Positions 7,792 through 21,176 of a DNA stretch of 64,000 bases are shown here, piece after piece. The notes below the pieces were generated by a model that was given only the letters and a program-made list of their open reading frames with translations, had not been told where the DNA came from and did no database searches. The DNA is taken from the NCBI RefSeq assembly GCF_004364775.1, contig NZ_SOAL01000015.1:1-64000 (forward strand), read 5' to 3'. How positions within the stretch are numbered: position 1 is the stretch's first letter; the number at the start of each line of letters is the position of its first letter. The translations under genes and the position numbers were made by a program. This stretch comes from Comamonas sp. JUb58 (GTDB lineage: Bacteria > Pseudomonadota > Gammaproteobacteria > Burkholderiales > Burkholderiaceae_C).

Positions 7792-8610
7792 ATGAAAGTA
7801 CTGATTTCTGTCGATATCGAAGGCGTGGCCGGTGTCTACCACCCCGAGCAGGTGCGCGCGGGCAACCCCGAGTACGAGCGCGCGCGCCGCCTGATGGCCC
7901 AGGAGGCCAATGCCGCTGTCGAAGGCGCTTTTGCCGCTGGCGCGCTGGAGGTCTATGTCAACGACTCGCATGGCGGCTTTCGCAATATGCCGCCCGATCT
8001 GCTCGATGCGCGTGCCCAGGTCATCCAGGGCAAGCCGCGCTACCTGAGCATGGTGGCGGGCGTGGAGCTGGGGGTGGATGCGGTCTGCATGGTCGGCTAC
8101 CACTCGCGCGCGCAGGGCCGGGGCATTCTGGCCCACACCATCAACAGCTTTGCGTTTGCCAGCATCCACATCAATGGGAAGGAGGCCAGCGAGGCCAGCA
8201 TTTACGGCGCCTTGGCAGGCGCCTATGGCGCGCCGGTGGTGATGCTGGCCGGCGACGATGTGCTGCGCGAGGAGAACCAGGCGATCTTCCCGCATGCGGT
8301 GTTTGTGCAGACCAAGCGCGCCACCGGCCAGGGCAGTGGCATCAGCCTCTCGCCCGAGCAGGCGCAAAAAGCCATCCGCGCCGGGGTGGAGCAGGGCCTG
8401 GCCGGGCGTGCCCAGTGCCAGCCGCTGCCAACCGCCAGCCCGGTGCAGGTGCAGATTGCCGCCACCTCGCCCGGCATGGCCGATCTGTTCTGCCAGTGGC
8501 CGACCCTGGAGCGGGTCGATGGCCGCACGGTGCGCTTCAGCGCGCCGGACATTGAATCGGCCGTGCGCATGACCAACTGCCTGTCGGCCATGTCCAGCAT
8601 GCTGCGCTGA
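7792..8610 (+). CDS. M55-family D-aminopeptidase (DppA-like)
   Basis: A 272-residue metallopeptidase resembling Bacillus DppA, a decameric zinc D-aminopeptidase that cleaves D-Ala-D-Ala and D-Ala-Gly-Gly. The metal ligands align by position: Asp8 and Glu10 in SVDIEGVAGV, His60 in VNDSHGG, His104 in GYHSRAQG, and a Glu at 131 or 134. His115 in ILAHTINS matches the proposed catalytic residue. The ATG at 7792 lies 4 bases after the preceding stop and follows directly from it in the operon. With the P1 peptidase it suggests use of D-residue or otherwise protease-resistant peptides, perhaps from peptidoglycan. Substrate specificity is inferred. Confidence 0.88.
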   Translation: MKVLISVDIEGVAGVYHPEQVRAGNPEYERARRLMAQEANAAVEGAFAAGALEVYVNDSHGGFRNMPPDLLDARAQVIQGKPRYLSMVAGVELGVDAVCMVGYHSRAQGRGILAHTINSFAFASIHINGKEASEASIYGALAGAYGAPVVMLAGDDVLREENQAIFPHAVFVQTKRATGQGSGISLSPEQAQKAIRAGVEQGLAGRAQCQPLPTASPVQVQIAATSPGMADLFCQWPTLERVDGRTVRFSAPDIESAVRMTNCLSAMSSMLR

Positions 8611-8620
8611 GCGGCCTGCG

Positions 8621-8642
8621 GCCATGCCCCGGTGGGCATGGC
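8621..8642 (+). terminator. Strong hairpin without a U tract after the dppA-like gene
   Basis: GCCATGCCC (8621-8629) pairs perfectly with GGGCATGGC (8634-8642) around a CGGT loop, 10 bases after the dppA stop. There is no T run, so it is either an mRNA 3' end stabiliser or a weak terminator separating the peptide operon from nasR. Confidence 0.4.
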
Positions 8643-8687
8643 ATGAAACCTGCTGGGTAGAGCGCTCAACATCGTTGGTGCGCGTTT

Positions 8688-9998
8688 ATGAAGTCTTCCC
8701 TGCATTTTCTGGTCGCTGCCCGCCAGCATGAGATGGCTGCGCTGGAACAGCTGGGCAAGGCCTGCTCGCTGGTGGTGGCCATGTCCTCGCTGGTGCATGC
8801 GCTGCAAAAGGAGCGCGGGCTGTCGAACATGGTGCTGGCCAGTGGCGGCGCGCAGGGCGCCGAGCTGCTGGCGCCCCAGCGGCTGCTGGCGGATGCACAG
8901 ATCGCCAATGTGCGCGATGAGCTCGATCGCCTGGGCCCACACCCCTCGGGCGGCAGCGGCGCGCGGCTGTGCAATGCGATTGCCTATACCTTGCAAGGCG
9001 TGGCGGCCCTGCCTGCGCTGCGCGCCCAGGTGCAGGCCGGCGGGCTGACACCGGCTGTCTGTACCGATGCCTTTGCGCGCCTGATTGCCGGCTGCCTGGC
9101 CGTGGTGTTTGAGGCGGCCGACAGCGCCAACGAGCCCGAGATTTCGCGCATGCTGGTGGCCTTGTTCCACCTGATGCAGGGCAAGGAGCTGGCCGGGCAG
9201 GAGCGCGCCTGCGGCACCAGCGCCTTTGCCTCGGGCCAGCTGCAGCCCGGCGCCCGGGCGCAGTGGCTGCACCTGATCGAATTGCAGGAGCGCTGCTTTG
9301 AGGTGTTTGCCAGCCTGGCCAGCGCCCGCGTGCTGCTGCTGTGGCAGGCCCATGTGGCCGGCGATACCGACATGGCGGCGGTGGAGCGCATGCGCCGCGT
9401 GGCCCACACCGCCACCGGCGCCAGCCTGAACCGCAGCTGGAGCGCCGACTGGTTTGCCGCCTGCAGCCACCGGCTCGATGCCTTGCATGGCGTGGAGACC
9501 CTGGTGGCGCAGGAGCTGCAGGTGCTGTGCCTGCACAAGCTGCAGGCGCAGGAGCAAGCGCTGGCGGCCTTGCAGGTGCTGCCGCCGGGTGCTGACGGAG
9601 GCACAGGGCGAGCAGGGGCCGCAGAGGGCGGCATGGCCTTTTTTGAGGCCTCGGCACCGCCCGATGCCTGGTCGCCGGATGCCGTGGGCGCACCGGCGCT
9701 GGGGCGCGATATCTTGTCCTTGGTGCAACAGCAAGCGCAGCGGCTGCAGACCATGCAGAGCCAGATCCACGAAGCCCGCACTGCCCTGCATGAGCGCAAG
9801 ACCCTGGAGCGCGCCAAGGGCCTGCCGATGGCCCAGCACCAGCTCAGCGAGAGCGATGCCTACCAGCTGCTGCGCCAGACGGCGATGAACCAGAACAAGC
9901 GCATGCAGGAGGTGGCCGAGGCGGTGCTGGCGATGGCGGCCTTGGTGCCCACCGTGCCTGGAGCGCCTGCCACGCCTGCCGCCCCCGAGCGGCGCTGA
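8688..9998 (+). CDS. nasR: NasR-type nitrate/nitrite-sensing antiterminator (NIT + ANTAR)
   Basis: This 436-residue soluble regulator has an N-terminal NIT sensor domain (about residues 25-290) with the helix motif LQKERGLSNMVLASGG, which in Klebsiella NasR binds nitrate or nitrite. It ends with an ANTAR RNA-binding domain (about 350-415) showing ERAKGLPMAQHQLSESDAYQ followed by LLRQTAMNQNKRMQEVAEAV. Proteins of this type bind paired hexaloop hairpins in leader RNA and prevent intrinsic termination. Two such leaders lie downstream, before the transporter operon and before the reductase operon, which strongly supports the assignment. A Pro/Ala-rich linker sits between the domains. The ATG at 8688 is the only good start. 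No leader of its own is visible. Confidence 0.9.
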   Translation: MKSSLHFLVAARQHEMAALEQLGKACSLVVAMSSLVHALQKERGLSNMVLASGGAQGAELLAPQRLLADAQIANVRDELDRLGPHPSGGSGARLCNAIAYTLQGVAALPALRAQVQAGGLTPAVCTDAFARLIAGCLAVVFEAADSANEPEISRMLVALFHLMQGKELAGQERACGTSAFASGQLQPGARAQWLHLIELQERCFEVFASLASARVLLLWQAHVAGDTDMAAVERMRRVAHTATGASLNRSWSADWFAACSHRLDALHGVETLVAQELQVLCLHKLQAQEQALAALQVLPPGADGGTGRAGAAEGGMAFFEASAPPDAWSPDAVGAPALGRDILSLVQQQAQRLQTMQSQIHEARTALHERKTLERAKGLPMAQHQLSESDAYQLLRQTAMNQNKRMQEVAEAVLAMAALVPTVPGAPATPAAPERR

Positions 9999-10146
9999 TC
10001 CGGGCCGCTACCAACAATCCTGCGCACCAAAGCATGGCAGCCACCGTGCAACCCACTGCTGCAATGCACCATTGCAGGGACGGTGGAGGGCATTCCTTGC
10101 TGGCAGCGGTCTGCACGCCAGAGAGAGGCACCGCATTTTTTAAATT

Positions 10147-10160
10147 GGCATGGAATATGC
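10147..10160 (+). promoter_or_regulatory. Sigma54-type promoter (-24/-12) of the nitrate transporter operon
   Basis: TGGCATGGAATATGCA (10146-10161) has GG at 10147-10148 and GC at 10159-10160 separated by exactly 10 bases, matching the sigma54 consensus TGGCACG-N4-TTGCW. The expected start of transcription is near 10172, directly before the first leader hairpin. Control by an enhancer-binding protein such as NtrC is expected; I found no convincing NtrC site upstream here. Confidence 0.8.
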
Positions 10161-10175
10161 ATTGATCTCTTCAAC

Positions 10176-10276
10176 CAGGCCAAAGGCGGCCTGTTTCCGG
10201 TAATCGCGAGTTATTTCGGGACAACGGCGTCCCTTTCCTGATGGTGCAAGCCATCAGCGGAAGGACGCCGTTTTTT
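10176..10276 (+). promoter_or_regulatory. NasR-responsive leader: two hexaloop hairpins and an attenuator terminator
   Basis: Hairpin P1 has stem CAGGCC (10176-10181)/GGCCTG (10188-10193) with loop AAAGGC. Hairpin P2 has stem GGGAC (10218-10222)/GTCCC (10229-10233) with loop AACGGC. Both loops are hexamers with A at position 1 and G at position 4, the known ANTAR-binding signature. P2 overlaps the 5' arm of an intrinsic terminator, AACGGCGTCC (10223-10232) pairing with GGACGCCGTT (10263-10272), continued by inner pairing TGATGG/CCATCA and followed by a T tract. P2 and the terminator are therefore mutually exclusive: NasR holding P2 would allow read-through into nrtA. Confidence 0.85.
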
Positions 10277-10317
10277 GTTTTTGGAACATGCAACGCTTTC
10301 GATGGAGTCCGACCAGA

Positions 10318-11613
10318 ATGACGACACGCCCCACCACTGATACCGCCCCGGCGGCCGAGGCCTCGCCCGCTCCGTCGGCCCAAGCCGGCCGCCGCCAGTT
10401 TCTGCGCCATGGCGCCCAGGCCGCAGCCGCCACCTTTGTCTACAGCGCGCTGGGCCACCAGGGTGTTTGGGCCGCTGGCTCGGATGCGCCCGAGAAAAAA
10501 GAGGTCAACATCGGCTTTATCCCGCTGACCGACTGCGCCAGCGTGGTGATGGCCTCGATGCTGGGCCTGGACCAGAAGTACGGCGTCAAGATCACGCCGA
10601 CCAAGGAAGCCAGCTGGGCCGGTGTGCGCGACAAGCTGACCAATGGCGACCTGGACATGGCCCATGTGCTCTATGGTCTGGTCTATGGCGTGCAGCTGGG
10701 CGTGGGCAGCCCGCAAAAGGACATGGCGGTGCTGATGACGCTCAACCGCAATGGCCAGGCGATTACCTTGTCCAAAAAACTGGCGGACAAGGGCGCGGTG
10801 GATGCCGCCTCGCTCGCCAAGCTGATGGCCACGGACAATCGCGAATACACCTTTGCGCAGACCTTCCCTACGGGCACCCATGCGATGTGGCTGTACTACT
10901 GGCTGGCCAGCGCAGGCATCCACCCACTCAAGGATGCCAAGGTGATCACCGTGCCGCCGCCGCAGATGGTGGCCAATATGCGCGTGGGCAATATGGATGG
11001 CTTTTGCGTGGGCGAGCCCTGGGGCCACCGCGCGATCATGGATGGCATCGGCATCACGGCCGTGACCACCCAGGACATCTGGCGCGACCACCCGGAAAAG
11101 GTGCTGGGCTGCACGCAGGACTTTGTCAGCCGCCACCCCAACACCGCACGCGCCGTGACCATGGCCATCCTGGAGGCGGGCCGCTGGATCGATGCCAGCC
11201 TGCAGAACAAGCAGAAGATGGCTGAGACCATTGCCGGCAAGGCCTATGTGAATACCAGCGTGGACGCGATCAACCAGCGCATTCTGGGCCGCTACCAGAA
11301 TGGCCTGGGCAAGACCTGGGACGACCCCAACCACATGAAGTTCTTTGCCGATGGCGATGCGACCTACCCCTACCTGTCCGATGGCATGTGGTTCCTCACC
11401 CAGCACAAGCGCTGGGGTTTGCTGAAGAACCACCCCGACTATTTGGCCGTCGCGAAAAAGATCAACCAGACCGCGCTGTACAAGGAAGCGGCCACGCAGC
11501 TGAAGATGGCCGTGCCCAAGTCGGACATGCGCAGTAGCGCGCTGATCGATGGCAAGGTCTGGGATGGCTCGGACCCCGCCAAGTACGCCGACAGCTTTGC
11601 TATCAAAGCCTGA
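10318..11613 (+). CDS. nrtA: Nitrate ABC transporter substrate-binding protein (NrtA/NasF type)
   Basis: A 431-residue CmpA/NrtA-family receptor that delivers nitrate (or nitrite) to the NrtBC importer. It carries a twin-arginine motif RRQFLRHGAQ (from residue 25), so it is probably exported folded by Tat. Family features include VNIGFIPLTDCASVVMAS, TFPTGTHAMWLYYWLA, VGNMDGFCVGEPWGH and DDPNHMKFFADGDATYPYLSDGMWF. I prefer the ATG at 10318, which has GGAG about 10 bases upstream; an in-frame ATG at 10288 sits directly on the terminator T tract and has poor spacing. Expression depends on the leader just upstream. It is the first gene of a three-gene operon with nrtB and nrtC. Confidence 0.93.
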   Translation: MTTRPTTDTAPAAEASPAPSAQAGRRQFLRHGAQAAAATFVYSALGHQGVWAAGSDAPEKKEVNIGFIPLTDCASVVMASMLGLDQKYGVKITPTKEASWAGVRDKLTNGDLDMAHVLYGLVYGVQLGVGSPQKDMAVLMTLNRNGQAITLSKKLADKGAVDAASLAKLMATDNREYTFAQTFPTGTHAMWLYYWLASAGIHPLKDAKVITVPPPQMVANMRVGNMDGFCVGEPWGHRAIMDGIGITAVTTQDIWRDHPEKVLGCTQDFVSRHPNTARAVTMAILEAGRWIDASLQNKQKMAETIAGKAYVNTSVDAINQRILGRYQNGLGKTWDDPNHMKFFADGDATYPYLSDGMWFLTQHKRWGLLKNHPDYLAVAKKINQTALYKEAATQLKMAVPKSDMRSSALIDGKVWDGSDPAKYADSFAIKA

Positions 11614-11626
11614 TAAGGAGCACCCC

Positions 11627-12613
11627 ATGCCAGCTGCACTGCGAGAGAGTCTGTCGCCCTTGCCGCCATCGGGCCCGGCCCCGGCCGAGCGCAAGGTCTT
11701 GTCCATCCATGAGCACATGGCGCGCAGCCTGCCCACCGCTGGGCTGGCTGCGGCGGCCGAACCCTCAGCGTCATCAGCGCCATCCGCGCCGGCTGCTGCG
11801 GCGCCGCGCGATCTGGCTGCCGCCTGGCAGCAGCGCTTTGGCAGCTTGGTGCAAAGCCTGCTGCCACCGGTGCTGGGCTTTGGCCTACTGCTGGTGCTGT
11901 GGTCCATCATCGCCCAGGGCAACCCCGGCATTCCCGGCCCGCAGGAGACCTGGCTGCAGGCGCAGGAGATCTTTCGCGATCCCTTCTACCGCAACGGCCC
12001 CAATGACCAGGGCGTGGGCTGGAATGTGCTGGCCTCGCTGCAGCGGGTGAGCATCGGCTTTGGCCTGGCGGCGCTGGTCGGCATTCCGCTCGGCTTTGTC
12101 ATTGGTCGCTTCGAGTTTCTCTCGCGCATGTTCAACCCGGTGATCAGCCTGCTGCGCCCGGTATCGCCGCTGGCCTGGCTGCCCATTGGCCTGCTGGTGT
12201 TCAAGGGTGCGAACCCGGCGGCGATCTGGACCATCTTTATCTGCTCGATCTGGCCGATGGTGATCAACACCGCGGTCGGCGTGCAGCGCGTGCCGCAGGA
12301 CTATATGAATGTGGCGCGGGTGCTGAACCTGAGTGAGTGGAAGATCGCCACCACCATTCTCTTCCCCGCCGTGCTGCCCTATATGCTGACGGGCGTGCGC
12401 CTGGCCGTGGGCACCGCCTGGCTGGTGATCGTCGCTGCCGAGATGCTGACCGGTGGCGTGGGCATTGGCTTCTGGGTCTGGGACGAGTGGAACAACCTCA
12501 ATGTCAAGAACATCATCATTGCGATCTTTGTCATCGGCCTGGTCGGCCTGCTGCTGGAATGGGCGCTGATCCGCCTGGCCTCGGCATTCACTTTTGAGGA
12601 GATCAAGGCATGA
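11627..12613 (+). CDS. nrtB: Nitrate ABC transporter permease
   Basis: This 328-residue inner-membrane permease follows nrtA by 13 bases, with AAGGAG 6 bases before the ATG at 11627. The N-terminal 80 residues are a cytoplasmic Ala/Pro-rich extension, followed by about six membrane segments and the EAA loop region (VGVQRVPQDYMNVARVLNLS), where the ATPase docks. LTGVRLAVGTAWLVIVAAEM and the ending IRLASAFTFEEIKA are typical of the NrtB/CmpB subfamily. The stop overlaps the nrtC start (ATGA), indicating translational coupling. Confidence 0.93.
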   Translation: MPAALRESLSPLPPSGPAPAERKVLSIHEHMARSLPTAGLAAAAEPSASSAPSAPAAAAPRDLAAAWQQRFGSLVQSLLPPVLGFGLLLVLWSIIAQGNPGIPGPQETWLQAQEIFRDPFYRNGPNDQGVGWNVLASLQRVSIGFGLAALVGIPLGFVIGRFEFLSRMFNPVISLLRPVSPLAWLPIGLLVFKGANPAAIWTIFICSIWPMVINTAVGVQRVPQDYMNVARVLNLSEWKIATTILFPAVLPYMLTGVRLAVGTAWLVIVAAEMLTGGVGIGFWVWDEWNNLNVKNIIIAIFVIGLVGLLLEWALIRLASAFTFEEIKA

Positions 12614-13443
12614 CGCCCAATACGCTCAACATTCCCGCCACGCCCCAGGGCAAGTACATCGAGATCCAGCAGGTGGCGCAAAGCTTCAAGACCGCCAAGG
12701 GCCTGTTCCAGGCGCTGCAGGGCATCAACCTGGAGATTGCCCAGGGCGAGTTTGTCAGCCTGATCGGCCACTCGGGCTGCGGCAAATCCACCTTGCTGAA
12801 CCTGATTGCCGGCCTGACCAGCCCCAGCGAAGGCACCTTGCTCTGCGCCAACCGCGAGATCAAGGGCCCCGGGCCGCAGCGCGCCGTGGTGTTCCAGAAC
12901 CATTCGCTGCTGCCCTGGCTGACCTGCTGGGCCAATGTGCACCTGGCAGTCGAGCGGGTGTTTGGCGGGCGTGAGCGCAAGGCCCAGCTCGCCGCCCGCA
13001 CCGATGCCGCGCTGGCGCTGGTGGGCCTGACCCACGCGGCGCAAAAGCGACCCGGCGAGATATCGGGCGGCATGAAGCAGCGCGTGGGCATTGCCCGGGC
13101 CTTGTCGATGGAGCCCCAGGTGCTGCTGATGGACGAGCCCTTTGGCGCGCTGGATGCCCTGACCCGCGCCAAGCTGCAGGATGAGCTGCTGGAGATCGTT
13201 GCGCGCACGCGCAGCACCGTGGTGATGGTGACCCATGATGTCGATGAGGCGGTGCTGCTGTCCGACAAGATCGTGATGATGACCAATGGGCCCGCGGCGA
13301 CGATTGGCGAGGTGCTGACGGTGCCCCTGGCCCGCCCGCGCAACCGGGTGGCGCTGGCCGAGGATGCGCAGTACCAAGCCTGCCGCAAGGCGGTGATCGA
13401 CTTTCTCTACACCCGCCAGGTGCATGTGGAGAAGGTGGCCTGA
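12610..13443 (+). CDS. nrtC: Nitrate ABC transporter ATP-binding protein
   Basis: A 277-residue ABC ATPase. Walker A is GHSGCGKST (residues 53-61), the signature EISGGMKQRVGIARAL, Walker B VLLMDEPFGALDAL, and the H loop VMVTHDVDEAV. It lacks the extra NrtA-like domain of cyanobacterial NrtC, so it corresponds to NrtD/NasD-type single-domain ATPases; the symbol follows operon position. It energises nitrate import with two presumed copies per NrtB dimer. The start overlaps nrtB by 4 bases, and an intrinsic terminator follows 23 bases after the stop. Confidence 0.92.
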   Translation: MTPNTLNIPATPQGKYIEIQQVAQSFKTAKGLFQALQGINLEIAQGEFVSLIGHSGCGKSTLLNLIAGLTSPSEGTLLCANREIKGPGPQRAVVFQNHSLLPWLTCWANVHLAVERVFGGRERKAQLAARTDAALALVGLTHAAQKRPGEISGGMKQRVGIARALSMEPQVLLMDEPFGALDALTRAKLQDELLEIVARTRSTVVMVTHDVDEAVLLSDKIVMMTNGPAATIGEVLTVPLARPRNRVALAEDAQYQACRKAVIDFLYTRQVHVEKVA

Positions 13444-13466
13444 GCGCTGCCATTGATGCCGCCCCA

Positions 13467-13492
13467 GGCGCTCCGCACGGAGCGCCTTTTTT
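13467..13492 (+). terminator. Rho-independent terminator of the nrtABC operon
   Basis: GGCGCTCC (13467-13474) pairs with GGAGCGCC (13479-13486) around GCAC, followed by TTTTTT. It closes the transporter operon, so the reductase operon needs its own promoter, which is present downstream. Confidence 0.9.
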
Positions 13493-13526
13493 ATGCACGC
13501 AAATGAGGCAGCGCGGCACGCGAGCA

Positions 13527-13541
13527 GCACAAAAAATGTGC
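13527..13541 (+). promoter_or_regulatory. Candidate NtrC enhancer site
   Basis: GCACA-AAAAA-TGTGC is a perfect inverted repeat with the same 15-base geometry as the NtrC consensus GCACC-N5-GGTGC. Its centre lies about 50 bases upstream of the -24 element of the reductase promoter. Binding is inferred from sequence only. Confidence 0.5.
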
Positions 13542-13583
13542 ACAGGCAATGCGCGGCTGCCGGCGCGCGTCGACAGCCAACTT

Positions 13584-13597
13584 GGTATGGAACTTGC
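13584..13597 (+). promoter_or_regulatory. Sigma54-type promoter (-24/-12) of the nitrite/nitrate reductase operon
   Basis: TGGTATGGAACTTGCA (13583-13598) has GG at 13584-13585 and GC at 13596-13597 with 10 bases between and a perfect TTGCA -12 element. The predicted start of transcription is near 13609, upstream of the second NasR-type leader. Confidence 0.85.
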
Positions 13598-13631
13598 ATA
13601 GTTCTTGGCGTGGCCATGGCGGCCACCGGGT

Positions 13632-13716
13632 GGTGGTGCAAAGTGGCGCTGCCGTCCAAAGACAAAGACGTCTAAGCGCGCATGCCTGGCATGCGGCGCC
13701 TAGACGTCTTTTTTTT
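13632..13716 (+). promoter_or_regulatory. Second NasR-responsive leader and attenuator, before nirB
   Basis: P1 is an 8-bp stem (with G-T pairs), GGTGGTGC (13632-13639)/GCGCTGCC (13646-13653), with hexaloop AAAGTG. P2 is AGAC (13660-13663)/GTCT (13670-13673) with hexaloop AAAGAC. Both loops keep A1 and G4. P2 overlaps the 5' arm of a strong terminator: AAAGACGTCTA (13664-13674) pairs with TAGACGTCTTT (13701-13711), with further inner pairing GCGC and GCATG/CATGC, ending in eight Ts (13709-13716). The layout repeats that before nrtA, although the sequences are otherwise different. Confidence 0.82.
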
Positions 13717-13737
13717 GTGCTGCCCACGGGAAATGCT

Positions 13738-16269
13738 ATGAAAAAAATCAAGTTGGTCATGGTTGGCAACGGTATGGCGGGTGTGCGTGCGCTCGAAGAG
13801 CTTCTGGCCCTGGCCCCGGATTTGTACGAGATAACGGTATTTGGCGCGGAGCCGCACCCCAACTACAACCGCATCCTGCTGTCGCCGGTGCTGGCGGGCG
13901 AGCAGACCTTGGAGGACATCGTTCTCAACGACTGGAGCTGGTACGAGACGCATGGCGTGCGCCTGCATGCCGGCTGCACGGTGCATGCGGTGGACCGCGC
14001 CCGCCGCGTGGTGCATGCCCGCAATGCCCAGGGCGAGGCCGTGACGGCCGACTACGACCGGCTCATTCTGGCGACGGGCTCCAACCCCTTCATGCTGCCG
14101 ATTGCCGGCAAGGAGCTGCAAGGCGTGCTGGCCTACCGCGACATTGCCGATACCCAGGCGATGATCGATGCGGCCAGCAGCTGGCGCCATGCGGTGGTGA
14201 TTGGCGGCGGCCTGCTGGGGCTGGAGGCGGCCAATGGCCTGATGAAGCGCGGCATGCAGGTGTCGGTGGTGCATGCGGGCGAGTGGCTGATGGAGCGCCA
14301 GCTGGACGACCAGGCCGGGCAGCTGCTGAAGAAGTCGCTGATCGAGCGGGGCATGCAGTTTTTCATGCAGGCGCAGACGCAGGAACTGCTGGGCAATGCC
14401 GAAGGCCGCGTGCGCGCGCTGCGCTTTGCCGATGGCCGCGAGATCGAGGCTGACCTGGTGGTGATGGCCGTCGGCATCCGCCCCAACACGGCGCTGGCCG
14501 AGGCCATGCACCTGCATGTGAACCGGGGCATTGTCGTCAGCGACACTATGCAGACCATCACCGACCCGCGCATCTATGCGGTGGGCGAGTGCGCGGCGCA
14601 CCGGGGCATTGCCTACGGCCTGGTGGCACCGCTGTTTGAGCAGGGCAAGGTGCTGGCCAACCACCTGGCCGAGCTGGGCATTGGCCGTTACCAGGGCTCG
14701 CTCACCTCGACCAAGCTCAAGGTCACCGGCATCGATCTGTTCTCGGCCGGGGATTTCCAGGGCGGGGAGGGCACCGAGCAGATCGTGCTGAGCGACCCCT
14801 ACTCGGGCGTGTACAAAAAGCTGGTGATCAAGGAAGACCGGCTGGTGGGCGCCTGCCTGTACGGCGATACGGTCGATGGCAGCTGGTACTTCAAGCTGCT
14901 GCGTGAAGGCCGCAGCGTGGCCGATATCCGCGACAAGCTGATGTTTGGCGAATCCAACCTCGGCGATGCCGGCCACCAGGGCCAGAACAAGGCCGCCGCG
15001 CTGGCCGATGCCGATGAGGTCTGCGGCTGCAATGGCGTGAGCAAGGGCGCCATCTGCAAGGCCATCAAGGACAAGGGCCTGTTCACCCTGGACGAGGTGC
15101 GCAAGCACACCAAGGCCAGTGCCAGCTGCGGCTCCTGCACCGGCCTGGTCGAGCAGATCATCATGTTCACCGTCGGTGGGGACTATTCAGCCTCGCCCAA
15201 GACCAAGCCGATGTGCGGCTGCAGCGAGCATGGCCACCAGGCGGTGCGCGATACCATTCGCGAGCACCGGCTGCTGACGACGGACAGCGTCTTCCGCTTC
15301 ATGGAATGGAAGACGCCCAATGGCTGCGCCAGCTGCCGCCCGGCCATCAACTACTACCTGATCAGCACCTGGCCCAAGGAGGCGCGCGACGACCCGCAAA
15401 GCCGCTTCATCAACGAGCGCAGCCATGCCAACATCCAAAAGGATGGCACCTACAGCGTGATCCCGCGCATGTGGGGCGGTGAGACCACGGCCGCCGAACT
15501 GCGCCGCATTGCCGATGTGGTGGACAAGTACCAGATCCCCACCGTGAAGGTGACCGGCGGCCAGCGCATTGACCTGCTGGGCGTGAAAAAGGAAGACCTG
15601 CAAGGCGTGTGGAACGACATAGGCATGCCCTGCGGCCACGCCTATGCCAAGGCGCTGCGCACCGTCAAGACCTGTGTGGGCAGCGAGTGGTGCCGCATGG
15701 GCACGCAGGACAGCACGCAGATGGGCAAGGACCTGGAGCGCGCGATGTGGCGCATGTATGCGCCGCACAAGGTGAAGTTTGCCGTCAGCGGCTGCCCGCG
15801 CAACTGCGCTGAATCAGGCATCAAGGACGTGGGCATCATCGGCGTGGACTCGGGCTGGGAGATGTACATCGCCGGCAATGGCGGCATCAAGACCGAGGTG
15901 GCGCACTTTCTCACCAAGCTCAAGACCGCCGAGGAGGTGCTGGAGTACACCGGTGCCTTTATGCAGCTCTACCGGTTGGAGGGCTGGTACCTGGAGCGCA
16001 CGGTGCACTACGTGAACCGGGTGGGGCTGGACTATGTCAAGCGCCGCATTCTGGACGATGCCGCCGGCCGCCAGGCGCTCTGGAACCAGCTGCAGCAGGC
16101 GCTGGAGGGCGAGCCCGACCCCTGGTTCGAGATCGACAAGGCGAGCGTGGACCTGCGCCAGTTCGAGCCGCTGCCGGTGCTGCCCGCACTGCAGGCTGGG
16201 CCTGTGCTGGCGGCCCTTTCCGCCCCTGCACCCGTACCCGTACCCGCCACCACCACCGCCGGCGCATGA
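13738..16269 (+). CDS. nirB: Assimilatory NAD(P)H nitrite reductase, large subunit
   Basis: An 843-residue enzyme that reduces nitrite to ammonium with six electrons from NAD(P)H. Domains in order: FAD/NAD-binding reductase starting with VMVGNGMAGVRALEEL (GxGxxG at residues 10-15); two BFD-like [2Fe-2S] domains (CGCNGVSKGAICKAI to SCGSCTG, then MCGCSEHGH to GCASC); and the ferredoxin-like plus siroheme/[4Fe-4S] half with Cys646, Cys652, Cys686 and Cys690 in the C-x5-C...C-x3-C pattern. The length is normal for NirB/NasB. The ATG at 13738 follows the attenuator T tract by 21 bases. The gene heads an operon with nirD, the nitrate reductase and the siroheme methyltransferase. Confidence 0.95.
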   Translation: MKKIKLVMVGNGMAGVRALEELLALAPDLYEITVFGAEPHPNYNRILLSPVLAGEQTLEDIVLNDWSWYETHGVRLHAGCTVHAVDRARRVVHARNAQGEAVTADYDRLILATGSNPFMLPIAGKELQGVLAYRDIADTQAMIDAASSWRHAVVIGGGLLGLEAANGLMKRGMQVSVVHAGEWLMERQLDDQAGQLLKKSLIERGMQFFMQAQTQELLGNAEGRVRALRFADGREIEADLVVMAVGIRPNTALAEAMHLHVNRGIVVSDTMQTITDPRIYAVGECAAHRGIAYGLVAPLFEQGKVLANHLAELGIGRYQGSLTSTKLKVTGIDLFSAGDFQGGEGTEQIVLSDPYSGVYKKLVIKEDRLVGACLYGDTVDGSWYFKLLREGRSVADIRDKLMFGESNLGDAGHQGQNKAAALADADEVCGCNGVSKGAICKAIKDKGLFTLDEVRKHTKASASCGSCTGLVEQIIMFTVGGDYSASPKTKPMCGCSEHGHQAVRDTIREHRLLTTDSVFRFMEWKTPNGCASCRPAINYYLISTWPKEARDDPQSRFINERSHANIQKDGTYSVIPRMWGGETTAAELRRIADVVDKYQIPTVKVTGGQRIDLLGVKKEDLQGVWNDIGMPCGHAYAKALRTVKTCVGSEWCRMGTQDSTQMGKDLERAMWRMYAPHKVKFAVSGCPRNCAESGIKDVGIIGVDSGWEMYIAGNGGIKTEVAHFLTKLKTAEEVLEYTGAFMQLYRLEGWYLERTVHYVNRVGLDYVKRRILDDAAGRQALWNQLQQALEGEPDPWFEIDKASVDLRQFEPLPVLPALQAGPVLAALSAPAPVPVPATTTAGA

Positions 16270-16292: not shown

Positions 16293-16721
16293 ATGAATGA
16301 ATGGATCACCATCTGCGCCATCGATGAGATTCCGGTGCTGGGCGCCCGCCGCGTGGCCCGCGCCCAGGGGCTGGATGTCGCAGTGTTCCGCACCGCCAGC
16401 GGCGAGGTATTTGCGCTGCTGGACCGCTGCCCGCACAAGGGCGGGCCTTTGTCGCAAGGCCTGGTGTTTGGCAGCAGCGTGGCCTGCCCCTTGCACAACT
16501 GGACGATTGCGCTGGCCACCGGCCAGGCCGCTGCTCCGGACGAGGGCTGCACCCCGCGCTTTGCGGTGCGGCTGGAGGGCAGTGCGGTGCAGCTGCGCGC
16601 CGATGAGCTGGCCCAGCATGCGCTGGAGCAGACCCGGCCACTGGCCGGGCCGGTAGGCCTGGGGCGCTGTGGCTCTGCGGCCGCCAGCTGCAGCCCGTCG
16701 CAGCCCGCTGTGGCCGCCTGA
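16293..16721 (+). CDS. nirD: Nitrite reductase small subunit with intact Rieske motif
   Basis: A 142-residue Rieske-type partner of NirB. Unlike many NirD proteins, which have lost the cluster ligands, this one keeps both pairs: Cys46 and His48 in CPHKGGPL, and Cys65 and His68 in CPLHNW, so it probably binds a [2Fe-2S] cluster. CAGGAG sits 6 bases before the ATG at 16293; an in-frame ATG at 16266 overlapping the nirB stop is possible but has no ribosome site. The last 35 residues are a Ser/Ala/Cys-rich tail beyond the fold. Confidence 0.9.
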   Translation: MNEWITICAIDEIPVLGARRVARAQGLDVAVFRTASGEVFALLDRCPHKGGPLSQGLVFGSSVACPLHNWTIALATGQAAAPDEGCTPRFAVRLEGSAVQLRADELAQHALEQTRPLAGPVGLGRCGSAAASCSPSQPAVAA

Positions 16722-16746
16722 TTTCGCCCACCGGACGGAGCCGCCC

Positions 16747-19608
16747 ATGCCCGAGACCCGATCCACCTGCCCCTATTGCGGCGTGGGCTGCGGCGTGATC
16801 ATCACGTCCGACGGCCAGCAGATAACAGCCGTGCGCGGCGACCCGGCGCACCCGGCCAACCAGGGCAAGCTCTGCACCAAGGGCAGCAGCCTGCACCTGA
16901 CGGCAGCGCCCGCGCTGGCGCGGCAAAGCCGCTTGCTGCAGCCGATGCAGCGCCTGCAGCGCGGGGCCACGCCCGAGGCCCGTAGCTGGGACACGGCGCT
17001 GGACCACCTGGCCGCCCAGCTGCTGCAGATCCATGCCGACCACGGGCCCGATGCGCTGGGCTTTTACCTGAGCGGCCAGCTGCTGACCGAGGACTACTAC
17101 GTGTTCAACAAGCTGGTCAAAGGCTTGCTGGGCACCAACAACCTGGACACCAACTCGCGCCTGTGCATGAGCAGCGCGGTGGCCGGCTACAAGGCCACCC
17201 TGGGGGCGGATGCACCACCGGCCTGCTATGAAGACATCGACCTGGCCGGCTGCCTGTTCATCAGCGGCAGCAATATGGCCTGGGCGCACCCCATCCTGTT
17301 CCGCCGGGTGGAAGAGGCCAAGGCGCGCCACCCCGAGCGCAAGATCATCGTCGTTGACCCGCGCCGCACCGAGACCGCCGAGCTGGCCGATCTGCACCTG
17401 GCCTTGCAGCCGGGCAGCGATGTGATGCTCTGCCATGGCCTCTTGCACATCATGCTGGCCCAGGGTTGGGCCGACTCGGCCTTTATCGATGCGCATACCA
17501 GCGGCTTTGCGCAGTTGCATGCCATCGTGCGCGAGGCGACGCCGGAGCGGGTGGCCCAGGTCTGCGGTCTGGCGCTGGCTGATCTCTACCTGGCCGCCCA
17601 ATGGCTGGCCTGGGGCGGGGCCGATGCGCCCGGCACGAACGGCGAACGCCTGCCCACGCTGAGCCTGTACTGCCAGGGGCTGAACCAAAGCAGCAGCGGC
17701 ACGGCCAACAATGCGGCGCTGATCAACCTGCACCTGGCCACCGGCCAGATTGGCAAGCCGGGCGCCGGCCCCCTGTCCTTGACCGGCCAGCCCAATGCGA
17801 TGGGCGGGCGCGAGGTGGGCGGCCTGTCCAACCTGCTCAGCGCCCACCGCGACATGGCCAACCCGCAGCACCGGGCCGAGGTGGCCCAGCATTGGGGCGT
17901 AGATGCCGTGCCGGCGCTGCCCGGCAAGTCGGCGCTGGAGATGTTCGAGGCCGCAGCCGATGGCCAGATCAAGGCCTTGTGGATTGCCTGCACCAACCCC
18001 GCGCAGAGCATGCCCGAGCAGGCCATGGTGCGCCGCGCGCTGGAGCGGGCCGAGCTGGTGGTGGTGCAGGAGGCCTTTGCCCAGACCGAGACGACCGCCT
18101 ATGCCGACTGGCTGCTGCCCGCCACCACCTGGGGCGAGAAGCTGGGCACGGTCACCAACAGCGAGCGCCGCATATCGCGGGTGCGCGCGGCGGTGGCCGC
18201 GCCCGGCGAGGCCCGCCATGACTGGCAGATTGGTGTGCAACTGGCCCAGCGGCTGGAACGCCATCTGCGGCCCGGCCGCCCCAGCCTGTTTGCCTATGAC
18301 ACCGTGCAGGCCGAGCGCGGCTGCGAAGCCATCTGGATGGAGCACCGCGACAGCACGCGCGGGCGCGACCTGGACATCACGGGCCTGAGCTGGGCGCTGC
18401 TGGAGGCGCAAGGCCCGCAGCAGTGGCCGCTGCCCAGCGGCGCGGCCCAAGGGCGCCAGCGCCTGTACAGCGATGGCCGGTTTGCCACCGACGATGGCCG
18501 CGCCCGTTTTGATGCCCAGGCCTGGAAGCCGGTGGCCGTGCCGCGCGATGCGCACTACCCCTTCAGCCTGAACACCAGCCGCCTGCGCGACCAGTGGCAT
18601 GGCATGAGCCGCACCGGCCAGCTGGGCCGCCTGTTTGCCCATGCCAGTGAGCCCAGCGTGCAGGCCCACCCGCAGGACATGCGCCGCCGGCAGCTGGAGG
18701 ATGGCGACCTGGTGCAGCTGCACAGCCGCTACGGCAGCCTGGTGCTGCCGGTACTGGCCGATGCCGGCCTACAGCTCGCGCATTTGAACCTGCCGATGCA
18801 CTGGGGCAGCATGCACCTAAGCGGCAGCACGGTAGACGGCCAGCGCCTGGCGGGCGTGAACGCGTTGACCACACCGGAGCGCTGCCCACGCTCCAAGCAG
18901 CCCGAGCTCAAGCACGTGGCGGTGCAGCTGGAAAAAGCCAGCCTGCCCTGGCAGTGCCTGGGCATGGCCTGGCTCGACGACTGCCAGGTGCTGGCCACGC
19001 GCCAGGCGCTTGCTGCGTTGCTGGGTGAGTTTGACTTTGGCAGCTGCGTGCTGTTTGGCCGGGCCGTGCCACTGGATGGCGCTGCCGGCCAGGGCCGCAA
19101 TGGCGTGCAGTTCCGCGCTGCCGCACGCCAGGCGCCGCCGGCGGCCTTGCTGGCGCGTTTGCAGCAGCTGCTGCAGCTCGATGGCCCGCAGACTCTGCGC
19201 TATGCCGATGCGCAGCGCCAGTGCAGCCGCGCCATGGCCATGGGCGAGCAAGCGGGCGAGCCGGTGCTGCAGGCCTTCTTGCTCTGCGGCGATGCCAGTG
19301 CCGGCCAGTGGCTGGCGCCGGTGCTGCGCGATGAGCAATCGACGCGCAGCTTTGGCCGCCTGCTGCTGTCCTCGGGCAGCCAGGCGCCTGCCGCTTTGCC
19401 GACCCGCGCACGCCAGGTCTGCGCCTGCATGAATGTGGACGAGGCCGCCATTGGCGAGGCCCTGGCCCGCATTGACGGCGCGCCGGAGCAGCGCCTGCTG
19501 GAGCTTAAAAACACCTTGGGCTGCGGCACACGCTGCGGCTCCTGCATTCCCCAACTCAAGCAGCTGGTGCAGCGCGTGGCCCCGGCCGCGCTGGCCCCTT
19601 CTGCCTGA
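16747..19608 (+). CDS. nasA: Assimilatory nitrate reductase, Mo-bisMGD catalytic subunit
   Basis: A 953-residue molybdoenzyme reducing nitrate to nitrite in the cytoplasm. The N-terminal [4Fe-4S] ligands are Cys8, Cys11, Cys15 and Cys43 (CPYCGVGCGV, GKLCTKG). Molybdopterin-binding stretches follow (NLDTNSRLCMSSAVAGYK, LTGQPNAMGGREVGGLSNLL, AFAQTETTAYADWLLPATTWGE). A C-terminal BFD-type [2Fe-2S] domain carries Cys892, Cys894, Cys930 and Cys933, as in Klebsiella NasA/NasC-type enzymes. There is no signal peptide, consistent with assimilation rather than periplasmic Nap. The ATG at 16747 has GGAG about 8 bases upstream. No separate electron-transfer subunit is encoded here; the fused cluster may accept electrons from NirB-like or ferredoxin-type partners. 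Confidence 0.93.
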   Translation: MPETRSTCPYCGVGCGVIITSDGQQITAVRGDPAHPANQGKLCTKGSSLHLTAAPALARQSRLLQPMQRLQRGATPEARSWDTALDHLAAQLLQIHADHGPDALGFYLSGQLLTEDYYVFNKLVKGLLGTNNLDTNSRLCMSSAVAGYKATLGADAPPACYEDIDLAGCLFISGSNMAWAHPILFRRVEEAKARHPERKIIVVDPRRTETAELADLHLALQPGSDVMLCHGLLHIMLAQGWADSAFIDAHTSGFAQLHAIVREATPERVAQVCGLALADLYLAAQWLAWGGADAPGTNGERLPTLSLYCQGLNQSSSGTANNAALINLHLATGQIGKPGAGPLSLTGQPNAMGGREVGGLSNLLSAHRDMANPQHRAEVAQHWGVDAVPALPGKSALEMFEAAADGQIKALWIACTNPAQSMPEQAMVRRALERAELVVVQEAFAQTETTAYADWLLPATTWGEKLGTVTNSERRISRVRAAVAAPGEARHDWQIGVQLAQRLERHLRPGRPSLFAYDTVQAERGCEAIWMEHRDSTRGRDLDITGLSWALLEAQGPQQWPLPSGAAQGRQRLYSDGRFATDDGRARFDAQAWKPVAVPRDAHYPFSLNTSRLRDQWHGMSRTGQLGRLFAHASEPSVQAHPQDMRRRQLEDGDLVQLHSRYGSLVLPVLADAGLQLAHLNLPMHWGSMHLSGSTVDGQRLAGVNALTTPERCPRSKQPELKHVAVQLEKASLPWQCLGMAWLDDCQVLATRQALAALLGEFDFGSCVLFGRAVPLDGAAGQGRNGVQFRAAARQAPPAALLARLQQLLQLDGPQTLRYADAQRQCSRAMAMGEQAGEPVLQAFLLCGDASAGQWLAPVLRDEQSTRSFGRLLLSSGSQAPAALPTRARQVCACMNVDEAAIGEALARIDGAPEQRLLELKNTLGCGTRCGSCIPQLKQLVQRVAPAALAPSA

Positions 19609-19628
19609 TGCTTTTGAAAGGTCTTGCC

Positions 19629-20435
19629 ATGCATGCCATTGCCACCACACCCCTTGCCGCCGGCCGCTGCTACCTGGTGGGCGCCGGCCCCGGCGACCCC
19701 GAGCTGCTGACCCTGCGCGCCTGGCGCGCCATCCAGGCCGCCACCTTGCTATTGGTGGACGACCTGGTCTCCGCCGACATCGTGGCGCTGGCGCCCGCTG
19801 CCACGCGCACCATCTATGTGGGCAAGCGCGGCGGCCGGGCCAGCACTTCGCAGGCCTTTATCGAAAAGCTGATGGTGATGGCCGCCCGCCAAGGCGAGAC
19901 GGTGGTCCGCCTCAAAGGCGGAGACCCTTTCATCTTTGGCCGGGGCGGCGAGGAGGTCGCCCACCTGCAGGCCCAGGGTGTGCAGGTGGAGGTGATCAAT
20001 GGCATCACCTCGGGCCTGGCCGCCGCCACCAGCCTGGGCGTGCCGCTGACCCACCGCGACTATGCCCATGGCGTTGTCTTTGTGACCGGCCATGTCAAGC
20101 CGGGTGGGGCGCCTCTGGATTGGCGCCAGTTGGGCGCGACGGCTGAGGCGATGTCGCTCAGCCTGGTGGTGTACATGGGGGTGGCCTCGGCGCCTTTGAT
20201 TGAGGCTGGTTTGTTGGCTGGTGGCTTGGCGCCGGATACGCCGGTGGCTTTGGTGCAGAACGCTAGTTTGTCTTCTCAGCGGTCGGTGTTGACTTCTTTG
20301 TCTTGTTTGGTGAGCTGTTTGCAGGGGAGTGGGTTGGGGAGTCCTTGCATGATGGTGATTGGTCGGGTGGCTGGGTTGGCGGATGCTAGTTTGTTGTGGC
20401 AGGGGTTGGTGGAGCCGCTTGAGCGGCAGGCTTGA
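19629..20435 (+). CDS. cobA: Uroporphyrinogen-III C-methyltransferase (SUMT) for siroheme
   Basis: A 268-residue SAM-dependent enzyme that makes precorrin-2, the siroheme precursor needed by NirB. Family motifs include YLVGAGPGDPELLTLRA, VYVGKR-like IYVGKRGGRAS, VVRLKGGDPFIFGRGGEE and the ending MMVIGRVAGLA. The oxidase/chelatase domains of CysG are absent, so a separate enzyme must finish siroheme. I chose the ATG at 19629 (GAAAGG 7 bases upstream) over an ATG at 19608 that overlaps the nasA stop. From about 20180 to the stop the DNA becomes extremely G- and T-rich and leucine is almost always TTG, unlike the first two thirds of the gene. Confidence 0.92.
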   Translation: MHAIATTPLAAGRCYLVGAGPGDPELLTLRAWRAIQAATLLLVDDLVSADIVALAPAATRTIYVGKRGGRASTSQAFIEKLMVMAARQGETVVRLKGGDPFIFGRGGEEVAHLQAQGVQVEVINGITSGLAAATSLGVPLTHRDYAHGVVFVTGHVKPGGAPLDWRQLGATAEAMSLSLVVYMGVASAPLIEAGLLAGGLAPDTPVALVQNASLSSQRSVLTSLSCLVSCLQGSGLGSPCMMVIGRVAGLADASLLWQGLVEPLERQA

Positions 20436-20510
20436 TGGGCTGCTTGTGTTGGTGCTGCTGCTAGTCAGTTGTTGCTAGTTGGTTGTTGCAGCGCCTTTTA
20501 ATGCGCTTTG

Positions 20511-20800
20511 TTTACTACTGCGTAGGGCAGTTGGCCGGGTCTCGCCCCGGCGGGCGAGGTACTTTTCTTGCGCGGCCAAGAAAAGTACCCAAAAGAAGGC
20601 CGCCCCTGCTGCTTGCGACCCTTCGCGTTGCGAAGGGCAACCTGTGTCGTGGCGTTTGCGGGGTGTGCCGCGAAACTCTCTACGCGCCAAGGCGCTCCGT
20701 TCGGACAGACGCGGCAAGCTAGTTCACGATGCACTGGCACTCTTCGGTGCGAGTGCCACCCCGCAAACGCCACGACCCAGGCGCATGCAAAAGGGGGGAT
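20511..20800 (+). repeat. Repeat unit A (about 290 bp)
   Basis: It runs from TTTACTACTGCGTAGGGC to GCATGCAAAAGGGGGGAT and is nearly identical to unit B. It contains a 13-bp hairpin, GGTACTTTTCTTG (20558-20570) with CAAGAAAAGTACC (20577-20589), and further short inverted repeats (CCCTTCGCG/CGCGAAGGG-type and TTTGCGGGGTG/CACCCCGCAAA). Confidence 0.85.
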
Positions 20801-20885
20801 TCGGGATAGCTTCTTTGAGCGGTGGATGATGCTGTCCTTCGCTTCTTGCTGGTTGGCTGGCCGTTGTGCTTGTTAATTAATTCTG

Positions 20886-21176
20886 TTTACTACTGCGTAG
20901 GGCGGCTGGCCGGGTCTCGCCCCGGCGGGCGAGGTACTTTTCTTGCGCGGCCAAGAAAAGTACCCAAAAGAAGGCCGCCCCTGCTGCTTGCGACCCTTCG
21001 CGTTGCGAAGGGCAACCTGTGTCGTGGCATTTGCGGGGTGTGCCGCGAAACTCTCTACGCGCTGAAAGCGCTCCGTTCGGACAGACGCGGCAAGCTAGTT
21101 CACGAAGCGCTGGCACTCTGCGGTGCCAGCGCCACCCCGCAAACACCACGCCCCAGGCGCATGCAAAAGGGGGGAT
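20886..21176 (+). repeat. Repeat unit B (direct copy of A)
   Basis: It matches unit A over its whole length with a few scattered differences, including the hairpin GGTACTTTTCTTG/CAAGAAAAGTACC. The differences near the 3' part keep the pairing of the inner stem (for example TGGCACTC/GCACTGCC-type arms change together), suggesting the structure is conserved. Confidence 0.85.

Follow-up and report, generated by a model that had tools for sequence, protein, structure and literature searches.

The nirBD-nasA operon of the analysed Comamonas strain is very probably preceded by a NasR-controlled transcription attenuator, one of two such leaders in the genome. The window (the whole stretch of DNA analysed, 64,000 nucleotides) carries, all on the + strand and in this order, nasR, the nrtA leader, nrtABC-type genes, the nirB leader, nirB, nirD, a nasA-type gene and a uroporphyrinogen methyltransferase gene. 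The nrtABC-type nitrate uptake genes (10318–13443) encode an NMT1_2 binding protein, a permease (TIGR01183) and an ATPase (TIGR01184). The reduction operon begins with nirB (13738–16269; TIGR02374, 905 bits) and continues with nirD, the nasA-type molybdopterin reductase and uroporphyrinogen-III C-methyltransferase (16293–20435); the reductase fell below the NCBIfam cut-offs, and its name therefore rests on Pfam domains and context. The nirB frame continues without a stop in the 5' direction, past the entire leader and as far as an ATG at 13549 (frame 13549–16269), so a gene caller could put the start upstream of the leader; the start is likely at 13738. Behind the operon a stretch is duplicated (20493–20800 and 20868–21176), with copies of 195 nt (95% identity) and 112 nt (93%) at a spacing of 375–376.

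Parts and number of the leaders

The first-pass annotation had described a sigma54 promoter, two hairpins (P1 and P2) and a terminator overlapping P2 upstream of nirB, and every one of these parts is present in the sequence. The sigma54-type promoter site (TGGTATGGAACTTGCA, 13583–13598, + strand, with GG at 13584–13585 and GC at 13596–13597) is one of two zero-mismatch matches to a loose consensus in the window, although this pattern by itself occurs at about chance level (40 matches with at most one mismatch vs 32.8 expected). The leader transcript is predicted to start at about 13609. A hairpin missing from the earlier list, P0, occupies its 5' end (13610–13626, + strand; GTGGCC-ATGGC-GGCCAC, with the pentaloop ATGGC). 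P1 follows (13628–13657, + strand), with 12 pairs (13628–13639 with 13646–13657) closing the hexaloop AAAGTG (13640–13645), then P2 (13660–13673, + strand; AGAC-AAAGAC-GTCT) with the hexaloop AAAGAC (13664–13669), and an intrinsic terminator (13664–13716, + strand) with a stem of 13664–13685 and 13689–13711 and a T8 tract (13709–13716). The P1 and P2 loops both have six nucleotides with A in the first and G in the fourth position (A1/G4). Because the terminator stem lies where it does, the loop and 3' arm of P2 fall inside its 5' arm, and P2 and the terminator are mutually exclusive, the arrangement of ANTAR dual-hexaloop leaders. The terminator side folds locally at −24.3 kcal/mol (13669–13720) vs about −3.3 kcal/mol for P2, and the leader as a whole has a folding z of −5.1, with none of 200 shuffles folding equally well.

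Further upstream, the inverted repeat GCACAAAAAATGTGC (13527–13541, no strand assigned) has the form GCAC-N7-GTGC, which resembles an NtrC site when judged by the NtrC-site consensus. This form is rarer than chance in the window (2 found vs about 5 expected per 64 kb). Of the 28 leader-bearing genomes of the genus, 23 have GCAC-N7-(G/A)TGC ahead of nirB, starting 55–56 bp 5' of the sigma54-type site in 16 of them; the three genus genomes without ANTAR proteins lack it there. A scan of 8600–14200 for sigma70 promoters found none.

The number of leaders was determined in several ways. A detector combining a P2 hexaloop, an overlapping terminator and an upstream A1/G4 hexaloop gave exactly two sites over both strands of the 64 kb, the nirB leader and the nrtA leader, and three matches in total in 40 dinucleotide shuffles (mean 0.075). 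A P2–terminator pattern, strict enough to miss some relatives' leaders, matched the same two leaders and no other place in the 5.46-Mb genome, with 0 matches for the reversed-pattern control. With a covariance model (R1), the strain's own nirB leader scored 73 bits and the next genome matches 27.0 and 24.7 bits; the nrtA leader was not among the eight R1 matches in this genome. Neither leader matched Rfam at the gathering thresholds; the one Rfam match in the window is a Betaproteobacteria toxic small RNA (RF02278; 61739–61799, − strand, 50.3 bits vs a threshold of 50). The nrtA leader comprises a sigma54-type promoter (TGGCATGGAATATGCA, 10146–10161, + strand, 1 mismatch), P1 (10176–10193, + strand; loop AAAGGC, 10182–10187) and P2 (10218–10233, + strand; loop AACGGC, 10223–10228), followed, from about 10263, by the 3' arm of the terminator and the T tract.

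The regulator gene, nasR (8688–9998, + strand), encodes a nitrate-responsive antiterminator in which a NIT domain (PF08376, 7e-53) is fused to a C-terminal ANTAR domain (PF03861, 2e-17); no NCBIfam model matched it. Its best solved relative is the "nitrate regulatory protein" of PDB entry 4AKK (E = 9e-48), which we take to be K. oxytoca NasR. By positions counted by hand, R43 and R237 of the window protein align with arginines of 4AKK, presumably the nitrate-binding pair R49 and R236. Y392 and M400 appear, with a numbering offset counted by hand, to align with Tyr164 and Met172, the residues reported to contact RNA in EutV (PMC8934654). The protein is 98–99% identical to NasR of Comamonas koreensis KCTC 12005. 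Residue 380 (9825–9827), within the ANTAR domain, is a proline in the window; among 131 aligned segments (some genomes counted more than once) it is leucine in 122, isoleucine in 6 and valine in 1, and proline solely in the window's own two copies. P380 may be a sequencing error or a change affecting the protein, and might weaken NasR in this strain alone.

Conservation of the nirB leader and its association with ANTAR regulators

We compared 43 nirB-type upstream regions, 32 of them from the window's genus (53 genomes placed in it, including Comamonas and Delftia). The P2 core was found in 33 of the 43, and P0, P1 and P2 stand in register in 28 of the 32 genus regions, with loop-to-loop steps of 24–27 nt (P0–P1) and 23–27 nt (P1–P2). 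Three of the four genus regions without a leader come from genomes lacking any ANTAR domain (G005, G011 and G026), and the fourth from G008. Outside the genus, P2 was detected in G039, G060, L115, L118 and L143; of these, L115 (Diaphorobacter) and L143 (a MAG) alone have the complete set of three hairpins.

Alignment A2, the 25 distinct leaders (23 from the genus, L115 and L143), has 87.5% of its cells paired, and 15 of the 22 pairs changed on both sides. Its covariation score is 0.294 vs 0.166 ± 0.013 in shuffles (0/500 reach 0.294), and at most 0.095 when slid. By hairpin, 96.7% of P0 cells are paired with 4/6 pairs changed on both sides, and 80.7% of P1 cells with 10/12, and P2 hardly varies; RNAalifold on A2 recovers all three hairpins, P1 shortened to 7 pairs. 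Covariation is thus strong in the P0 and P1 stems. Chance hairpins beside an ordinary terminator, formed without any protein control, have nothing in their favor beyond the weakness of the single motifs (the sigma54 pattern and GCAC-N7-GTGC), and they are scarcely credible against the detector and genome-wide pattern counts, the covariation, the P0 loop letters described below and homologous leaders at 28 of 32 genus nirB loci.

The invariance of A1/G4 in P1 and P2 within this comparison is circular, because the criteria for finding these hairpins demand a purine at position 1 and G4; a fairer test is given by family scans in which the choice of upstream hairpins ignores the loop letters. The R1 model matched 58 of 299 family genomes at E ≤ 0.01. 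At 27 R1-matched loci outside the training set, a stem-only finder placed P1 in 22, all with A1/G4 (it failed on four with a G.G mismatch in P1, and one lacked P2), and P0 carries an A1/G4 hexaloop in 12 of the 22 and not in 10; these family counts are biased, because R1 was trained on such leaders.

In a gene-anchored scan (118 loci given, 87 anchored and 31 not, with some P2 accepted under a looser rule), a P2 with terminator was found at 46 of the 87 loci, i.e., in 37/38 nrtA upstreams vs 9/49 nirB upstreams (one of the nine, L355, is doubtful). None of the 12 nirB genes within 120 nt behind nrtC has its own leader, vs 9/37 of the others, and thus a separate nirB leader characterizes lineages whose nirB is set apart. 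It is not a rule, as 28 nirB genes that are not directly behind nrtC have none.

Within the genus the leader goes with the regulator. It is present at 28 of 29 nirB loci of genomes with NasR or a NasT-like protein beside nrtA (26/27 with full-length NasR and 2/2 with a NasT-like ANTAR protein). The sole NasR-bearing exception is G008, where nirB lies 34 nt behind an ORF ending like nrtC, inside the nrt operon. P1, P2 and the terminator were found in none of the three ANTAR-less genomes (G005, 85% complete, G011 and G026), where the sigma54-type site is present; their nirB upstreams are similar and therefore probably reflect one event. Two side observations were made at these loci. In G032 (L108), a genome without a strong nrtA match, the nasR match is split into two parts, one of which contains a stop. 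In three Delftia-like genomes (G036, G006 and G022; L099, L100 and L101), the NirB homologue behind the leader matches only over the first 411–416 residues and may be an electron-transfer subunit; a second NirB, 37–38% identical, is encoded elsewhere, and in G022 nasA lies about 1.3 kb after the start of the homologue with the truncated match.

Four genus genomes (G025, G030, G063 and G075) lack a full-length NasR and have, beside nrtA, a NasT-like ANTAR protein with a frame of about 230–280 codons (that of G030, L105 11186–11917, is the one viewed in detail). All four keep hexaloop hairpins upstream of nrtA, and G025 and G030 keep the nirB leader, suggesting a sensor swap with the RNA retained. 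Of 28 model-matched loci, 10 have a NasT-like ORF ahead of nrtA, with 60–68% identity to the G030 one. A single RNA design thus apparently serves two types of sensor.

The genome carries two ANTAR proteins, NasR and, on another contig (C8), AmiR. As the sole other ANTAR protein, AmiR might in principle control the nirB leader in place of NasR. We consider this very unlikely, since the protein has an AmiR N-terminal domain (AmiR_N + ANTAR) and is encoded directly behind an AmiC-like binding protein (L002 20–1701; PDB 1PEA/1QO0 matches), so that its partner and signal are probably amides, and since nasR is 3.6 kb from the leader and the presence of leaders in the genus follows that of NasR or NasT-like genes. 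From the sequence, the best reading is that a single NasR serves both leaders. The first-pass claims of a NasR-type antitermination leader before nirB and of one NasR for two operons are supported by the co-occurrence of leader and regulator across the genus and, for the second, also by the detector count of two and the single NasR. The first-pass suggestion that uptake and reduction could respond with different sensitivity is a guess.

The 5' hairpin and the relationship of the two leaders

The first-pass annotation held that the two leaders share only their architecture and the A1/G4 positions. This does not stand, as they also have a common P2 core (GAC-AAMGRC-GTC) and similar promoter-proximal first hairpins (GGCC-loop-GGCC), whereas the architecture itself differs: the nirB leader has three hairpins in two steps of ~24 nt, and the nrtA leader has two ANTAR hexaloops separated by 41 nt. 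Between the first hairpin and P2, nrtA leaders that could be placed in NasR-type genus genomes contain a spacer of 17–28 nt, often a hairpin, with predicted loops that are not A1/G4 hexaloops; P1 of the nirB leader is A1/G4 and is therefore, by position, an extra middle element. We suggest, by position and sequence rather than phylogeny, that P0 of the nirB leader is the counterpart of nrtA-leader P1, and that nirB P1 is additional.

The idea that the nrtA leader breaks the EutV spacing rule was softened, as an additional hairpin sits in the longer gap (38–43 nt) of many among the 35 leaders placed (41 were given; the pattern missed those of G004, G008, G025, G030, G063 and G075, five of which have two A1/G4 hexaloops near the gene, and G008 one). 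The gap is often shorter (27–35 nt) where little folds in the spacer; contrary to this trend, the window's clade keeps a 41-nt gap despite a weak spacer fold (−0.8 kcal/mol).

Hairpins upstream of P2 were also profiled in 40 nrtA regions (32 with P2, 8 without), picked by a stem of at least 4 pairs, −3 kcal/mol or better, 18–75 nt upstream. Of the 41 upstream hexaloop hairpins in the 32 leaders, 36 are A1/G4. Two or more such hairpins occur in 10 of the 32 leaders; in 8 of these they lie 28–31 and 55–60 nt from P2. An R1 match of the genome was the reason for including 13 of the 40 regions, and 7 of the 10 multi-hairpin leaders come from those 13.

P0 was located without regard to its loop letters. 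The 30 leaders have 14 distinct P0 hexaloops, with A1 in 12, G4 in 12 and both in 10, and positions 2, 3, 5 and 6 are mixed. Among all C-G-closed hexaloops of the compared loci, leaders included, 101/1066 have A1 and G4, so that 10/14 corresponds to a binomial probability of 4e-8 with shared ancestry ignored. Counted by genome, P0 is an A1/G4 hexaloop in 20 of the 30 leaders, which thus contain three such hexaloops; the other ten comprise six pentaloops (five genomes of the window's clade and G073), two loops with G1 and two without G4. In the window itself the P0 loop (ATGGC) has five bases, and therefore P0 may be a relic in this strain.

P0 could instead be a mere 5'-terminal stem-loop, e.g., for protection of the mRNA end, with P1–P2 as the working ANTAR target and the A1/G4 letters of the relatives' P0 functionless. 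In all three ANTAR-less genomes a GGCC-type stem is, by eye, readable at the P0 position too (its loops are CGGTGG or TGTTG; RNAfold forms a P0-like 7-pair hairpin in G011 and G026 and does not choose it in G005), the clade of the window has a pentaloop, and genus exceptions exist without G4 (G022, ATTCGT; G061, ATGAAG) or without A1 (G028). The excess of A1/G4 among the distinct P0 hexaloops over the background, and the similar first hairpins before nrtA in family members, count against this explanation, which we regard as conceivable yet somewhat doubtful. Since a P0-like stem is readable in ANTAR-less genomes and A1/G4 occurs elsewhere, P0 may combine a 5' stem that is useful in itself with a loop that is readable as an ANTAR hexaloop where an ANTAR regulator exists. 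There is also a hint of a trade-off between the two hairpins, with a stronger P1 in leaders whose P0 is no intact A1/G4 hexaloop (p = 0.014, Mann-Whitney test on 25 distinct pairs, ancestry uncorrected).

Proposed mechanism and relation to known systems

Like the Comamonas leaders with their sigma54-type sites, the nasF leader of Klebsiella oxytoca has a sigma54/Ntr promoter. The accessible accounts of the nasF/NasR system also describe a NIT-ANTAR regulator, an A1/G4 hexaloop pair, a P2 overlapping the terminator and nitrate assimilation genes (PMC3369931, PMC7496416). Compared by description rather than by the nasF sequence, K. oxytoca has one leader for one operon (nasFEDCBA), whereas the Comamonas strain has separate leaders for uptake and reduction and an extra 5' hairpin in the nirB leader. 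One regulator with two leaders is not new in kind. In Enterococcus faecalis, EutV is reported to serve several attenuators (four T-loops and ef0120) with dual hexaloops and a spacing constraint (PMC3369931, PMC8934654), but it belongs to a phosphorelay sensor and has two hexaloops per leader, not three. In the case of the NasT leaders (Paracoccus nasA, Bradyrhizobium nosR and nirA), too, an ANTAR protein under nitrate control has at least two leader targets, one of them that of an assimilatory nitrite reductase; these leaders have NasT/NasS in place of NasR, and a three-hexaloop leader is not mentioned in the accessible text (PMC6759348, PMC5424462). The nearest precedent found for a third hairpin is the PPE1-5' RNA, described as bound by the ANTAR protein PdtaR and predicted to have three hairpins; it is, however, a trans-acting titrating RNA near a start codon and not an attenuator, and the likeness is in hairpin number (PMC8131098). 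In the text of their paper, Ramesh et al. 2012 list nitrite reductase and nitrate transporter genes among those preceded by predicted ANTAR RNAs, and mention a genome in which six transcription units together carry at least 13 motifs (PMC3369931). A literature search, with supplements and most subscription papers outside its reach, revealed no paper on Comamonas NasR and no three-hexaloop ANTAR attenuator, and we propose the three-hexaloop ANTAR leader as a possible new variant.

The nitrate dependence, binding and hand-off described below would follow the NasR and EutV literature. As reported, NasR is a constitutive dimer that binds RNA only with nitrate or nitrite, at about 1 uM when the RNA has both hairpins and at about 12 uM when it has one (PMC7496416), and EutV contacts one hexaloop at a time, being recruited at P1 and moving to P2 (PMC8934654). 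Under nitrogen limitation, NtrC and sigma54 would start transcription at about 13609, and P0 and then P1 would emerge from the polymerase. Without nitrate, NasR would remain unbound, the terminator (13664–13711) would beat the weak P2, and an RNA of ~108 nt would be released. With nitrate or nitrite, dimeric NasR would be recruited to the first available hexaloop (P1 here, and also P0 in many relatives), pass to P2 and hold it closed, so that the terminator is blocked and nirB is read. The nrtABC leader would follow the same scheme with one recruiting hexaloop. This literature, together with the alignment of the contact residues, suggests that the window's strain probably has an ordinary dual-hexaloop attenuator before nirB, and many relatives one with three hexaloops.

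Spacing bears on this mechanism. A linker 20 nt longer is reported to abolish EutV leader function (PMC8934654), and eut-leader linkers are given as 5–12 nt (PMC3369931). The P1–P2 linker of the nirB leader, 6 nt with 8 P1 pairs, has 2 nt with all 12 pairs and is then below the eut range; the loop-to-loop step of 24 nt is near-constant in relatives (22–27 nt over the 30 leaders with P0, P1 and P2).

The terminated leader RNA could also act in trans as a NasR sponge, coupling both operons by competition. The short RNA would leave the P0 and P1 hairpins free, and small RNAs are reported to titrate the ANTAR regulators EutV and PdtaR (PMC8934654, PMC8131098). We consider such a role unlikely, as the short RNA is expected mainly without nitrate, when NasR reportedly fails to bind RNA (PMC7496416), and no feature of the sequence favors its stability or abundance.

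For the family, we tentatively suggest, at somewhat less than an even chance, that the nitrate ANTAR leaders are, or descend from, three-hexaloop relays in which the regulator passes from P0 to P1 to P2 with the moving polymerase, read by either of two sensors (NasR or NasT-like), and that the window's clade dropped the first step and strengthened the second. The steps are about 25 + 24 nt before nirB; the nrtA leaders of some genomes, several of which have a NasT-like gene, show steps of about 27 + 29 nt. Such a relay would be a three-step version of the EutV successive-binding model, a bold reading with which the regular spacing and the conserved loop letters agree.

The crystal structure of EutV suggests that an ANTAR dimer passes from one hexaloop to the next and cannot hold both at once. 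Natural leaders with one (nrtA) or two (relatives' nirB) recruiting hexaloops, presumably read by the same protein in the same cell, offer a direct test of hand-over, and lineages that gained or lost hexaloops along with the regulator provide a natural mutational series.
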